This document shows positions 5,214 to 10,358 of a stretch of DNA of 39,072 bases, in pieces. Origin of the DNA: Tyzzerella sp. An114 (GTDB lineage: Bacteria; Bacillota; Clostridia; Lachnospirales; Anaerotignaceae); the NCBI RefSeq assembly GCF_002161055.1, contig NZ_NFLT01000015.1:1-39072 (forward strand), read 5' to 3'. The position numbers were made by a program, and so were the translations under genes. The first letter of the stretch is position 1. Each line of letters opens with the position of its first letter. A model generated the notes under the pieces. That model was not told where the DNA came from. It saw only the letters and a program-made list of their open reading frames with translations, and did no database searches.

Positions 5214-7265
5214 TTACACCCCCTCTGCCATTCCTTCAGCAGCCTCGCTTGTTTTTCTTACAATATGGTCAATAACTCCATCAATATCCATACCGTTTTT
5301 AATATTATTACTCATTCCCGACATATCAATATTTATACTTGGTGTAACATAACGCATTACAACATCTCTTTCAGCCATTTTTCTTAAATATTCCATATTT
5401 TCATTTGTTGTTGCCACTTCATCAGCTATATCAGATGTGTTACCTGCTATTTTGTTAGTATCTTCCGCAATACTTGGTATGTTACCATATCCACTTGAGT
5501 CAAAAGGTATACCATCCAGCCCACCACCAAATGTACTTTTTATTTTATTGTCTATTCCTTCACCAAATTTATAACCTGCATCCCAAGCCTCACCATAATT
5601 TATTCTGTCAATACCACCTTTTGGTGTTAATCCTGTAAGTGTAATAGCTTTCTCGTTCTTACCCCAGGAAACAACATTTTTCTTTAAATTTTCAAGACCT
5701 CCCGTCCAATCAGTTCCAAATATTGCATCTATAATTTTTGTAACAACTTGTCCTAAAGATAAAAACCACCCTATAATTTGACCAATTAAATTAGCTACTG
5801 CATCTCCAAAGCTATCAAAACCACCATTACAAACATTTAGAATAAATTCAACAATACCCAAAAACGGATATACAAAAGCCCACACTGCTTGTAGTATAGC
5901 ATTTATAACTCCAATAGCAATATTGAGTATAACTGCTCCAGCAACAGCTATAATGCCAGCAATAAATCCTATTGCTGATGTAGTTTCATTTCTCGCTTTA
6001 TTTACAGCTGCAATAACAACAAATATAACTGTTATTAATACTATGATTGCTAATATAATCCAAGTAATAGGACAAGCCATTAAAGCTGTATTAAATGTAG
6101 ATTGTGCAACCGTTGCTTGTGCTGTTGCAACAGTCAAGGCATATTCGGCATTTACAGCAAGCCATTGAGCATTTACATTAGCAAGTATTGCCTTAGCCTT
6201 AATAAGTGCCTGTACATTTGAAATAGCTGTCATAGTATTCGATAATCCTTGTGCTGCTGAATTAGCCAATAAAGCTAATGTATAGTAGCCTACCGCAGAA
6301 GCAATACCTAAAACAATAGGCTGTATAACAGACCAATTCTTAGCTAAAAAGCTTATAAAATTTAACAGAGGTTGTGATGCATATAAAACTTTATTTACAA
6401 TTCCATTCCAAACTTGACTCCAAGTCATAGGCATATCATTAAATTGGGTATTTATCTCATCAGTGGCACTTAACATTGCATTTTTTACAATATCAGCTGT
6501 AATTTTACCATCTGAAGCTAAAGTCCTTATTTTTCCAATAGGCTCACCCAAATAATCAGCTATTTTTTGTATAACATTAGGTGCAGCTTCAAATACAGCA
6601 TTTAATTCTTCTCCTCTTAATACTCCAGAACCAAGAGCCTGCGTAAGCTGTAATGTTGCTGAATATGTTTCTGCCTGTGAAGCTCCGGCTATTACAAATA
6701 ATTTATTAAGATTTTCTGCAAACTGTATAGTTTCATCATTACTTGCAAAAGCATCATCAGCTCTCAAGGCAAGTTTTGCAACAACATCTGCTGTTTGACT
6801 ATAAAGTGCTCTTGATTCTTGAGCAGAAGCAAATATCTTGTCTTGTAATTCTTCAACAGAACCACCATCATCAACTATCATATTAAGTCTTGCAGTAGTG
6901 TTAGAAAAGTTATCTGAAGCATTAAAAAGAGATTTAACCCCTTGTATTCCTAAATATGCTCCCACCATACTTTTTATATTATTCAAAAGATTATTTGTTG
7001 AAGATACTCCGCTTCTAACTTCATTGTTATAATTCCTTTGACTTTGACCTGCTCTGTTGGTGCTATTTACAATTTCCTCTATTTCTCTTTGTGCTTGGTC
7101 TAAACTTCTTCTTGTTTCATCAAATGTATGTGTATCAAAAGCATTATCCATAGAGGTGGCTACTCTTTCAGTTACAGATATAAGGCTATTAACAGAGCTT
7201 ATTATATTTTGTATTGGTCTTGTCATTCTGTCTGTAAGACTAATTATTGCATTAATAGATGCCAT
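5214..7265 (-). CDS. Tail tape-measure protein
   Basis: 683 residues. Residues ~1-100 are coiled coil. Residues ~105-290 carry the tape-measure N-terminal domain (LAEETYSATLQLTQALG-type block, here ETYSATLQLTQALGSGVLRG; then MPMTWSQVWNGIVNK). Hydrophobic segments follow at ~395-480, including ITWIILAIIVLITVIFVVI and GFIAGIIAVAGAVILN, which could become membrane-inserted during DNA ejection. The usual rule of ~1.5 angstrom per residue suggests a tail near 100 nm (inference). Starts ATG with AGGTGG upstream, 8 bp after the end of the frameshifted chaperone product. Confidence 0.95.
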   Translation of the reverse strand: MASINAIISLTDRMTRPIQNIISSVNSLISVTERVATSMDNAFDTHTFDETRRSLDQAQREIEEIVNSTNRAGQSQRNYNNEVRSGVSSTNNLLNNIKSMVGAYLGIQGVKSLFNASDNFSNTTARLNMIVDDGGSVEELQDKIFASAQESRALYSQTADVVAKLALRADDAFASNDETIQFAENLNKLFVIAGASQAETYSATLQLTQALGSGVLRGEELNAVFEAAPNVIQKIADYLGEPIGKIRTLASDGKITADIVKNAMLSATDEINTQFNDMPMTWSQVWNGIVNKVLYASQPLLNFISFLAKNWSVIQPIVLGIASAVGYYTLALLANSAAQGLSNTMTAISNVQALIKAKAILANVNAQWLAVNAEYALTVATAQATVAQSTFNTALMACPITWIILAIIVLITVIFVVIAAVNKARNETTSAIGFIAGIIAVAGAVILNIAIGVINAILQAVWAFVYPFLGIVEFILNVCNGGFDSFGDAVANLIGQIIGWFLSLGQVVTKIIDAIFGTDWTGGLENLKKNVVSWGKNEKAITLTGLTPKGGIDRINYGEAWDAGYKFGEGIDNKIKSTFGGGLDGIPFDSSGYGNIPSIAEDTNKIAGNTSDIADEVATTNENMEYLRKMAERDVVMRYVTPSINIDMSGMSNNIKNGMDIDGVIDHIVRKTSEAAEGMAEGV

Positions 7266-7273
7266 TTAACCAC

Positions 7274-7878
7274 CTACCTCTTTTTATTTTTTAATTCCTT
7301 TTCTTTCTCTTTTTCAGCCTCTATTTTTTTATCAATACAAGCAATAATAAAGGCTTTTTCTTGTGTATCTAAATTAATAAATACAGAGGGTAGCATTCCA
7401 AACTCTAAAAAACAGTAATAGGCATAACAGGAAGTACCACCCTCATCAATTAGTTTTTTGCTTCTTCAATCTCCTCATTAATATTGCTATTTCCAATATT
7501 ATTAGTTATGAAATCAACAAAATTATTATATTCATTTGGGTCATCAATCATCTGAACGATAAGCTCTTCAGGTGTCATAACTCCATAACTATCCTGTAAT
7601 TCTTTATCATATAAATTAGGCTCTACTACTGAAGAAGCAATTAATTTTGCTATATATTTTCTATTATCAAAAGTAGTTCTAAATACATTAGGTTTTCCCT
7701 GCATCGGAATTTCTCTTGTACAACTTTCTCTTATATCTTCACTTTCTGCTGTTGTTAATGGTTTTATAGTCCATTCAAGAGGATTTCCATTTTCATCACA
7801 AAGTGACTTTGTTGCTGCATATTTGACATTTTCTCTCTGTTTTTTATTTTTCTTTAAAAATAATGATAATTTTGACAT
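7274..7878 (-). CDS. Tail assembly chaperone, -1 frameshift fusion product (about 201 aa)
   Basis: The zero-frame chaperone gene ends ...GCA AAA AAC TAA. The heptamer A AAA AAC (7453-7459) is in the exact X XXY YYZ phase for simultaneous -1 slippage. Shifted reading continues 59 codons from CTA to TAG at 7274-7276. The extension begins LIDEGGTSCYAYYCFLEFG and continues LPSVFINLDTQEKAFIIAC before a charged EKEKEKE tail, which is plainly protein-coding and has no start codon or ribosome-binding site of its own. Known families: tail-assembly gpG/gpGT of lambda and gp41/gp42-type of Mu use such shifts to make a minor long chaperone that coats the tape measure. No obvious stimulatory hairpin or pseudoknot was identified by eye. 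Confidence 0.85.
7450..7878 (-). CDS. Tail assembly chaperone, unshifted form (XkdN-like)
   Basis: 142 residues; the abundant zero-frame product. The N-terminus (MSKLSLFLKKNKKQRENVKYAATKSLCDENGNPLEWTIKPL) and the block ESEDIRESC are typical of XkdN/YqbN-family proteins lying between the tail tube and tape-measure genes. Residues ~95-140 include DSYGVMTPEELIVQMIDDPNEY. ATG with AAGGAG upstream. It follows the moron terminator, so its mRNA depends on read-through or an unseen promoter. Confidence 0.88.
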   Translation of the reverse strand: MSKLSLFLKKNKKQRENVKYAATKSLCDENGNPLEWTIKPLTTAESEDIRESCTREIPMQGKPNVFRTTFDNRKYIAKLIASSVVEPNLYDKELQDSYGVMTPEELIVQMIDDPNEYNNFVDFITNNIGNSNINEEIEEAKN

Positions 7879-7944: not shown

Positions 7945-8475
7945 CTATTGTTGTTCAATACTGTTATAATGTTCTGTTTCTCCTTCTTCATCCCAATGGT
8001 CAACTATATGATTTCCATAAGGGTCATATACATCTACTTTTCCAAAATTTATAGTATTATCTTTAATATATGCTCTGAAATTATAAGTATATTTTAAGTC
8101 ACCTGTATTAAGTGTTGTAAAACTTCCTTTTCCTATATATTCTTGTAAACTTTCTTCAAAATAAATACTATGGTCTGAAATTGTAAACTTACAGTCAGTT
8201 CCAAGTGTAGTATTCATTGATTTAATAAAGGCATCATCTACTTTACCTGATTTATTGCTGTTTCCAATAGAAGAAACAGCAATAGCAACAGCAATAATAA
8301 AGCCTATTATAATCACAATTAAGCACCCTGACTTCTTTTTATTTGGTTTTTGAACTTGATTGAAAATATTATTTTCATTCATAAAAACATTATTTCCTGT
8401 TGCAGTACCACAGTTTTTACAGAATTTTTCATCAGCTTCTAACTCCTTACCACACTTACTACAAAACTTATTCAT
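7945..8475 (-). CDS. Moron: zinc-ribbon, single-pass membrane protein
   Basis: 176 residues of unknown function. An N-terminal zinc ribbon has Cys5, Cys8, Cys19 and Cys22 (FCSKCG / FCKNCG). A lysine-rich stop (KPNKKK) precedes one membrane helix (~51-68, LIVIIIGFIIAVAIAV). The remainder (~70-176) would lie outside the cytoplasm and contains a beta-rich segment (LKYTYNFRAYIKDNTINFGKVDVYDP). The topology is zinc-in, domain-out, resembling bacterial zinc-ribbon/TM proteins of uncharacterised role. It interrupts the otherwise universal tube-chaperone gene pair and has its own promoter and terminator, which marks it as a lysogenic-conversion (moron) gene. Superinfection exclusion or host envelope modification is a guess. 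Confidence 0.85.
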   Translation of the reverse strand: MNKFCSKCGKELEADEKFCKNCGTATGNNVFMNENNIFNQVQKPNKKKSGCLIVIIIGFIIAVAIAVSSIGNSNKSGKVDDAFIKSMNTTLGTDCKFTISDHSIYFEESLQEYIGKGSFTTLNTGDLKYTYNFRAYIKDNTINFGKVDVYDPYGNHIVDHWDEEGETEHYNSIEQQ

Positions 8476-8562: not shown

Positions 8563-9039
8563 TCACCTCATACCCTCAAGCATAGCGAACTCTTCTGGGA
8601 TTTCCCAATCCTCAAAAGTAAAGTCCATATCCTCATCAAGGGTTTCTCCATCAGCGTCAAACTTAGCAATTATTCCGCTATCCATATTACAATCTTTTAA
8701 AATTATAGTCTGTCTGCCTGCTGCTGATGTTTTATCCTCATTTACAATCTGAATATCAAAATAAATATCTTCTCCGGTTTCTTTATATTTATATAGGAGT
8801 TTTCTAAATATTGATGTGTTATAATGGAAAGTAGCACTTCCTGAACCTGTCCAACCTGAAGCCTTATTTCCTTTTGCTGGTCTGCCTAAAATAGGAACTT
8901 CTGTTTTATTTTTCTCCATTTTAGCCTCAAGATTAATAGCCTGCATAAAATTATATCTATTACCGTCTATTGTCACAAAGCACTCAGCCTCTTTTGCTGA
9001 TAAAGCATCTTTCGCCTTCATAGTAACATTATTACCCAC
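8563..9039 (-). CDS. Tail tube protein, XkdM-like
   Basis: 158 residues, the usual size for XkdM-type tubes of contractile tails. Visible blocks: MGNNVTMKAKDALSAKEAECFVTIDG, QAINLEAKMEKNKTEVPILGR, KGNKASGWTGSGSATFHY, FRKLLYKYKETGEDIYFDIQI, followed by the conserved LKDCNMDSGIIAKFDADGE. It follows the sheath gene by 14 bp. Late structural gene, expected at very high copy in virions. Confidence 0.93.
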   Translation of the reverse strand: MGNNVTMKAKDALSAKEAECFVTIDGNRYNFMQAINLEAKMEKNKTEVPILGRPAKGNKASGWTGSGSATFHYNTSIFRKLLYKYKETGEDIYFDIQIVNEDKTSAAGRQTIILKDCNMDSGIIAKFDADGETLDEDMDFTFEDWEIPEEFAMLEGMR

Positions 9040-9053
9040 ATAAACACCCCCTT

Positions 9054-10358
9054 TTACGCTATTTCAACTGTCATATAAAGTTGTGCCATAGCATTGACCA
9101 CAGTAACTTTATCATATACAACAACAGCTTTTTTACTATCACCTTGAACAACAGTTATATCTTCAGATGTAAAGTTTTCTATTGCTCTTATATCCTGTAA
9201 CTGCTGATGATGTTTAACTATATCATTCCAAAGGCTTATGCGTCCATTTGCATCATTAGGCACAACACCCAAATATCTAGTATTGAATATATTTGCAATA
9301 TCATTAGCAATCTGGTCACAAACTCTTATTGTCTGATTTTCCTTAAATATATCTCCCTTTGTCTCTGATGTCGTTAAAAGCGTATTTATATCAGAAAGCA
9401 CTCTTACATCATTACCTACATTATGGAAAGCAAATTTACCTGCATTAATAAATCCTTCAAGCTGTGACTGTGTATAGTCTGCTTTTACAGTAAATTCACC
9501 GTCATATTTTTTATTAAGTAATGAAGCGTTTACAGGACAACTTGATTCTGCACCTGTTACCCAATATACAAGTGATGATACAGGACTTTCTTCAACATCA
9601 TTAATAACATTTATAACTCCCTCATAGTCAGCCTCTTTATTATGAACTACAAGCTGAAATTTTGCCCCAACTTCATCTCTAAGCCTTTTTGTATAAGCAA
9701 CATAGAGGGATTTTATTTCATCTTCAGTAGAAACACAACCAAGTATATTAAAATAGTAACTTTCGGCTTTATCTAAAAATGTTTGATGAGCTCCTCCATT
9801 TACTGTGCCATTTGCACCTGTTGAAAGAGGTTCTCCTGCTGTTTCTGAAAGAGATGCACCACTTTTCCAAGTAACATAATCATTGTCAACAAGCTCTGAC
9901 ATTTGAGAAACTGTTTGTTTGTCTAAAAGTGTTGTATCATCAATATAAAGTGAAACATCAAACTTTTCTTCTTCCTCTACATTATTTGATATTACAACTT
10001 TTAAATTATTTCCCCTTGTACCACAATACTTAGCTGTTGCATATGTATTTGTTGCTTTTACACCGCCACTTGTAAGCCTATAAAGGTAAAGTGTTTTAAG
10101 ATTTAAAAATAAATCTCTAAGACCTTTTAACTGTGGTGCTGTATAGTCATAACCGAATAATTTCATACTATTTTTTTGTAAATCACCGTTTGTAACTTCA
10201 AAGATAGTATTTTCAACACCCCAATCAAGTTCAAGAGCCATGGCTGCATAACCTCTATCAGAAAGTGTTGCAGAGGCTCTACTTGCAGATATAAAATTTA
10301 TATATGCCCCCGGTAAAACCTTATTTTGTGTAAAAAAAGTTCCGCCACCTAAAGCCAT
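9054..10358 (-). CDS. Contractile tail sheath protein, XkdK-like
   Basis: 434 residues. The N-terminus GGGTFFTQNKVLPGAYINF is the sheath-family start (GGG-F-Q-KV-PGaYinf). The C-terminal NAMAQLYMTVEI is also typical. The sequence between carries the family phrases RGYAAMALELDWG and QLKGLRDLFLNLKTLYLYRL. Contractile sheath makes this a myophage. ATG start; 2-bp gap to the preceding 57-residue gene. Confidence 0.95.
   Translation of the reverse strand: MALGGGTFFTQNKVLPGAYINFISASRASATLSDRGYAAMALELDWGVENTIFEVTNGDLQKNSMKLFGYDYTAPQLKGLRDLFLNLKTLYLYRLTSGGVKATNTYATAKYCGTRGNNLKVVISNNVEEEEKFDVSLYIDDTTLLDKQTVSQMSELVDNDYVTWKSGASLSETAGEPLSTGANGTVNGGAHQTFLDKAESYYFNILGCVSTEDEIKSLYVAYTKRLRDEVGAKFQLVVHNKEADYEGVINVINDVEESPVSSLVYWVTGAESSCPVNASLLNKKYDGEFTVKADYTQSQLEGFINAGKFAFHNVGNDVRVLSDINTLLTTSETKGDIFKENQTIRVCDQIANDIANIFNTRYLGVVPNDANGRISLWNDIVKHHQQLQDIRAIENFTSEDITVVQGDSKKAVVVYDKVTVVNAMAQLYMTVEIA

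Follow-up and report, generated by a model that had tools for sequence, protein, structure and literature searches.

A very probable programmed -1 ribosomal frameshift at the stop codon of an XkdN-like tail assembly chaperone gene

The tail assembly chaperone (TAC) of the contractile-tailed phage P2 is subject to a -1 frameshift (E/E+E'). Long-tailed phages are said to conserve frameshifting in their TAC genes widely, and in phage lambda (G/GT) the -1 frameshift lies near the end of the TAC gene and gives a minor extended product that acts with the tape measure protein (PMC5009743, available excerpts). For a Gram-positive phage, the Bacillus siphophage SPP1, a putative -1 frameshift has been described in the TAC (gp17.5/gp17.5*), at a UUUUUUC heptamer within the gene (PMC6316719, available excerpts). 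A_AAA_AAC is among the consensus heptamers of the GeneTack clusters (Antonov et al. 2013), where 7% frameshifting is given for an HK97-like phage TAC cluster of 41 genes (PMC3711429, available excerpts).

The gene examined here belongs to another family. XkdN of PBSX and YqbN of B. subtilis (3KLU) share its protein family and fold; PMC9603447 and PMC9406221 discuss the structure of YqbN as that of a TAC and name XkdN as the PBSX chaperone, and the available excerpts of these two papers make no mention of a frameshift in either. Likewise, no description of a frameshift in XkdN or PF08890 was found in the literature, among the matches listed and as far as their text was accessible; an earlier description is possible, and we do not claim that frameshifting in the XkdN-like family is new to science. 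We describe here a very probable frameshift of the lambda G/GT type, found in a contractile-tail family. Unlike lambda G/GT, the gene is a PF08890 member whose A AAA AAC lies at the very stop codon and is followed by a strong 3' hairpin, and the tail is contractile; unlike the window, SPP1 is a siphovirus with its heptamer inside the gene. The comparison with lambda is based on its published description.

The window is a stretch of 39,072 nucleotides from Tyzzerella sp. An114. Its minus strand carries a contractile-tail module made up of sheath, tube, zinc-ribbon, chaperone and tape measure genes (Table 1), with the chaperone gene placed between the tube (major tail protein) and tape measure genes and one extra gene (7945-8475) intervening. 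The chaperone matched PF08890 (Phage_TAC_5) over profile positions 1-135 of 135 (2e-42, 144.8 bits vs a cut-off of 27). Its sequence also matched the YqbN crystal structure 3KLU (2.1e-14), as did its predicted fold (Foldseek, 1.6e-07, TM 0.72/0.85; model pLDDT 76, pTM 0.64). The zinc-ribbon protein encoded by the extra gene matched phrog_16989, a family of the moron category (5.1e-07).

Table 1. Features of the tail module and of the proposed frameshift site (positions in the window)
Feature	Positions	Strand	Evidence or detail
Tail sheath protein	9054-10358	-	PF04984 + PF17482; phrog_279 2.1e-131
Tail tube protein	8563-9039	-	PF09393, 2e-53
176-aa zinc-ribbon protein gene, between tube and chaperone	7945-8475	-	
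Zero-frame tail assembly chaperone (TAC), XkdN-like, 142 aa	7450-7878	-	PF08890; phrog_389 4.9e-39
Shine-Dalgarno-like GAGGAG, 11 nt 5' of heptamer	7471-7476	-	best duplex -7.2 kcal/mol
Slippery heptamer A AAA AAC, in phase	7453-7459	-	context GCA AAA AAC TAA
Zero-frame stop TAA, directly abutting heptamer	7450-7452	-	
Spacer from heptamer to stem, 8 nt	7445-7452	-	
Predicted hairpin, 5' arm (14 pairs, one bulged base)	7430-7444	-	
Predicted hairpin, 3' arm, into Leu-Pro-Ser codons (type B register)	7386-7399	-	
Putative -1 frame extension, 59 codons + stop TAG	7274-7453	-	aligned with 65 others; PHROG matches
Tape measure protein, next gene downstream of chaperone	5214-7265	-	PF20155 3e-49; phrog_1068 4e-170

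A preliminary description of this DNA had proposed that a -1 frameshift joins the chaperone to a 59-residue extension, and its observations were confirmed; the hairpin, the GAGGAG sequence (Table 1) and the spread of the arrangement through the family are additions to it. The heptamer, said to lie in the right phase two codons before the stop, indeed supplies the last two sense codons of the gene (AAA AAC), and a reading frame check showed that the phase at 7453-7459 is correct for tandem -1 slippage (X XXY YYZ). The -1 frame, described as open for 59 codons, runs from 7465 to a TAG at 7274-7276 (minus strand), which makes 63 codons, 59 of them after the slip, and 8 bases separate this TAG from the tape measure ATG. 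The fusion of chaperone and extension would comprise 201 aa, with a mass computed from the sequence of 23,193 Da (23.2 kDa), in agreement with the predicted product of about 23 kDa. The extension was said to have no start signal and to be missed by ORF callers; ATG, GTG and TTG are absent before its residue 20, and it does not appear in the list of ORFs of at least 50 aa. The window has 151 ORFs (56 on the minus and 95 on the plus strand) that span 60 codons or more from stop to stop. They contain 11 in-phase X XXY YYZ heptamers within 30 nt of the stop, of which only the one at 7453-7459 is followed by 40 or more open codons in the -1 frame. Given the composition of the minus strand, chance would leave 59 codons open with a probability of about 0.003 and put the heptamer at a given position with one of about 4e-4.

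In the mechanism that we propose, most ribosomes would stop at the TAA and release the 142-residue TAC. In a minority, with Lys and Asn tRNAs on AAA AAC, the ribosome would be stalled by the hairpin 8 nt downstream and would slip back one base onto AAA AAA, after which translation would add the 59 residues to the TAC and yield a 201-residue form. A point against this mechanism is that, in E. coli, A AAA AAG is more slippery than A AAA AAC. We infer the ratio of the two products, the need for the extended form and the binding partner of the extension, which by analogy with lambda may be the tail tube protein.

We looked into how the site is conserved using TAC homologues drawn from genomes of the host's relatives (60) and of its phylum (149), from IMG/VR, from GTDB contigs and from annotated phages, for the last of which 20 regions were fetched out of a larger set of matches. 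The search of the host's relatives gave 44 places, of which 30 were made into loci, 8 were examined separately and 6 were fetched last. A profile search and de-duplication gave 74 non-redundant TAC ORFs, after removal of L016 (the gene runs off its contig), L065 (no profile match) and five duplicates; the six late-fetched places and the second TACs of seven two-TAC clusters are counted outside the 74. The heptamer was A AAA AAC in 65 of the 74 homologues and A AAA AAT in one, in phase and within 10 nt of the stop, and the extension frames aligned, which bears out the homologue alignment that had been suggested as a check (66/74 with either heptamer). Each of the six late-fetched places likewise has an extension behind an in-phase site, which is A AAA AAC in five and A AAA AAA in one. 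It had been stated beforehand that the proposal would suffer if close relatives had lost the heptamer or the -1 frame; this was not seen, as all fetched full-length relatives at about 50% identity or more kept both. The one partial relative in this identity range, L037, has an early stop and is uninformative for the frame. Almost all PF08890 genes sampled thus share the two-frame arrangement, and one clade lacks it.

The choice of codons at the site is uniform. Elsewhere in the same TAC genes, AAA and AAG were used 462 and 351 times, and AAC and AAT 198 and 297 times, whereas the codons at the 66 sites are fixed as AAA AAC apart from the single AAT, a count that is conditional on the heptamer by which these sites were chosen. 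A Lys-Asn end written in other codons was kept by none of the eight genes without the heptamer. Fixed AAA AAC against mixed codon use elsewhere argues for a constraint on the nucleotides and not on the protein alone, and the plain reading of these counts is a nucleotide-level constraint at the slippery codons. A rival reading is that RNA polymerase slips on the A run and produces a mixed mRNA population. RNA polymerase slippage on A runs is known in bacteria, and a hairpin does come after the run here; transcriptional slippage generally needs longer runs, however, and the run was exactly six in all 66 sites (seven in the late-fetched L093) and always stood in the X XXY YYZ phase relative to the reading frame. 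We consider slippage of the polymerase very improbable, and programmed slippage of the ribosome the better account of the site.

All 66 extensions could be aligned, and they start with Leu-Ile in 62 of 66 when read from the slip (60 of 66 when read from the stop). In 9 of 11 pairs the dN/dS of the extension was 0.03-0.37, the remaining two being saturated at synonymous sites; the pairs were hand-picked, and in those tested these ratios indicate that the extension is under purifying selection. It is predicted to form three helices, of which the second is short and the third long (pLDDT 83, pTM 0.59). Six PHROG families of unknown function matched the extensions, each in 2-8 of the 8 members tested, with phrog_10943 and phrog_20560 matching all 8; no Pfam match was obtained, and comparison with solved structures, Pfam and folds gave nothing useful (best BFVD match, E 0.024). 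The preliminary description's phrase "typical chaperone-extension sequence" is fair as a characterization, but it finds no Pfam match behind it, and the PHROG matches are all of unknown function.

The extension could instead be a separate small gene, translated from a start of its own or by re-initiation after the chaperone stop. In the window an in-frame ATG does occur at extension residue 20, but the conserved Leu-Ile and Ala-Tyr-Tyr parts precede it; an ATG, GTG or TTG lies near the beginning in 13 of 66 extensions, whereas 53 of 66 lack a start codon over their first 8 residues, and ATG is wholly absent from 8 of 66. Some phage annotations also speak for a separate gene: the 3' end of the extension, with the same frame and stop, is annotated as a hypothetical gene of its own in 5 of the 20 fetched regions (Abouo, phiCDKH02, Jimmer1, PBP180 and Osiris, the extension of Osiris being the same as that of Jimmer1). 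A separate gene would not, however, explain why the upstream frame keeps AAA AAC fixed, and we regard it as highly unlikely compared with an extension reached by frameshifting. A joined chaperone-extension gene was annotated in none of the 20 fetched phage regions (17 annotated, three without annotation), and one region omits the TAC. Mass spectrometry of phiCD508 virions missed the XkdN-like protein (PMC11948020, available excerpts), which fits a chaperone that is absent from the virion.

Eight of the 74 homologues had no heptamer: L037, with its early stop, EJ-1 (L069), and six that fall in one clade (L020, L021, L022, L027, L028 and L030; tree support 94) and are second, TAC-like genes. In Streptococcus phage EJ-1 (L069 1486-2082), chaperone and extension form one ORF of 198 residues, and its near twin MismyG (L070) has the heptamer and two frames; the single frame of EJ-1 may be either a natural form or a sequencing error. 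The EJ-1 record shows that a database entry with both parts in one frame exists, a point for reading the two frames as one gene split by an assembly error, or as a chance heptamer beside a decayed frame. The two-frame arrangement recurs, however, in assemblies from several collections, and the pairs tested show the extension to be under purifying selection. Both go against an origin of this kind, which we take to be extremely improbable.

Two TAC-like genes each were also observed in seven clusters of related genomes (L082-L087 and L089). One TAC of each cluster has no slippery site, and in L085 it lies between the tube and LysM-type genes; the second has A AAA AAC in L085, L086, L087 and L089 and A AAA AAG in L082, L083 and L084. 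The host itself has a second contractile-tail cluster (L088, G000:C56:40000-50000), in the order sheath, tube, LysM protein, YqbQ-like protein, TAC, 210-aa protein, DUF2577, sheath initiator, baseplate J and secG. No tape measure protein was recognised at the expected place in L088, where the 210-aa protein had no Pfam or PHROG match; the TAC of this cluster still has A AAA AAC and an extension.

Stem-loops that stimulate -1 frameshifting in bacteria typically lie a few nucleotides (about 5-9) past the heptamer. The hairpin predicted in the window had a minimum free energy of -20.8 kcal/mol (z -3.05), with none of 200 shuffles as good. Across the 66 sites the mean z was -3.2, with 45 sites below -2 and none above +1. 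Base-pair probabilities indicated that a shared 5' arm region, in Glu-Gly codons, pairs mainly with one of two stretches. In type A (31 sites) its partner lies near Ala-Leu codons and the loop is about 25 nt long; in type B (31 sites, including that of the window) the partner lies near Leu-Pro-Ser codons and the loop is about 45 nt long. Neither type was found in the remaining 4 of 66, the Lactobacillus phages KC5a, phiAQ113, Lj771 and S16 (L068, L073, L075 and L079), which keep the heptamer and the extension and have no predicted stem from the 5' arm region. A search of positions 7200-7600 of the window against Rfam 15 gave no match above the gathering score and one sub-threshold snoRNA match (21.7 vs 50 bits).

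We then evaluated the pairing with one fixed register per type, which some of the sites do not fit. Six core pairs were formed in 86% of cells in type A and 74% in type B, vs 51-56% in the other type; the types were assigned by folding, which makes the fraction paired circular, and permutation of the arms and slid controls serve as guards. Values as high were reached by 0 of 2000 arm permutations for type B and 2 of 2000 for type A. For covariation we used 18 of the 31 type B sequences (window included) and 18 of the 31 type A sequences, hand-picked as alignable, so that the following counts lean towards structure. In type B, a 7-pair core was paired in 85.6% of cells vs 40-67% when slid, and 14 cells were changed on both sides vs a shuffled mean of 5.6 (0 of 500 shuffles); three pairs showed change on both sides, a number reached by 208 of 500 shuffles. 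In type A, an 8-pair core was paired in 88.9% of cells vs 51-62% when slid, and five pairs showed change on both sides (0 of 500 shuffles); the cells changed on both sides numbered 6, and slides of +1 and +2 gave 6 and 7. RNAalifold returned no consensus structure and no pairs on the type B alignment. Judged from these alignments, the stem covaries, and it does so in two registers.

Placed on the TAC tree, the A/B label required 15 changes, and the starred branches force at least six for either label vs the rest; the tree rests on few columns relative to its number of rows, and the labels come from folding, with L037 left out and EJ-1 cut to its first 132 residues and given no state. A tentative reading, somewhat less than even in our estimation, is that the heptamer has stayed nearly frozen as the stimulating hairpin was repeatedly rebuilt, its register switching many times inside a constrained coding sequence.

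In dnaX-like bacterial -1 frameshifting, a Shine-Dalgarno-like sequence lies about 10 nt upstream of the slippery site. The GAGGAG at 7471-7476 is a possible further stimulator of this kind. The best duplex value was below -4 at 44% of the 66 sites vs 23% of background places, a weak enrichment that is confounded by Glu codons, and a similar Shine-Dalgarno-like peak occurs 29-36 nt upstream across the homologues.

Altogether, the sequence comparisons support the frameshift interpretation, and we are highly confident that the TAC gene of this contractile-tailed phage or prophage would undergo programmed -1 ribosomal frameshifting. The element is an ordinary one in a less described family; its added interest lies in a near-frozen site with seemingly rebuilt hairpins and in a gap in annotation. 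XkdN-like genes that end in the motif GCA AAA AAC TRA offer a simple lead for closing this gap, and the six PHROG families of unknown function gain a likely role because they match the extension. The family also provides Gram-positive contractile-tail systems, such as PBSX of laboratory B. subtilis, that would allow the ratio between the two chaperones to be studied. Moreover, if the hairpin has been rebuilt as we tentatively suggest, these genes would form a natural series for how the position of the stem sets the frameshift ratio and, thereby, tail assembly.
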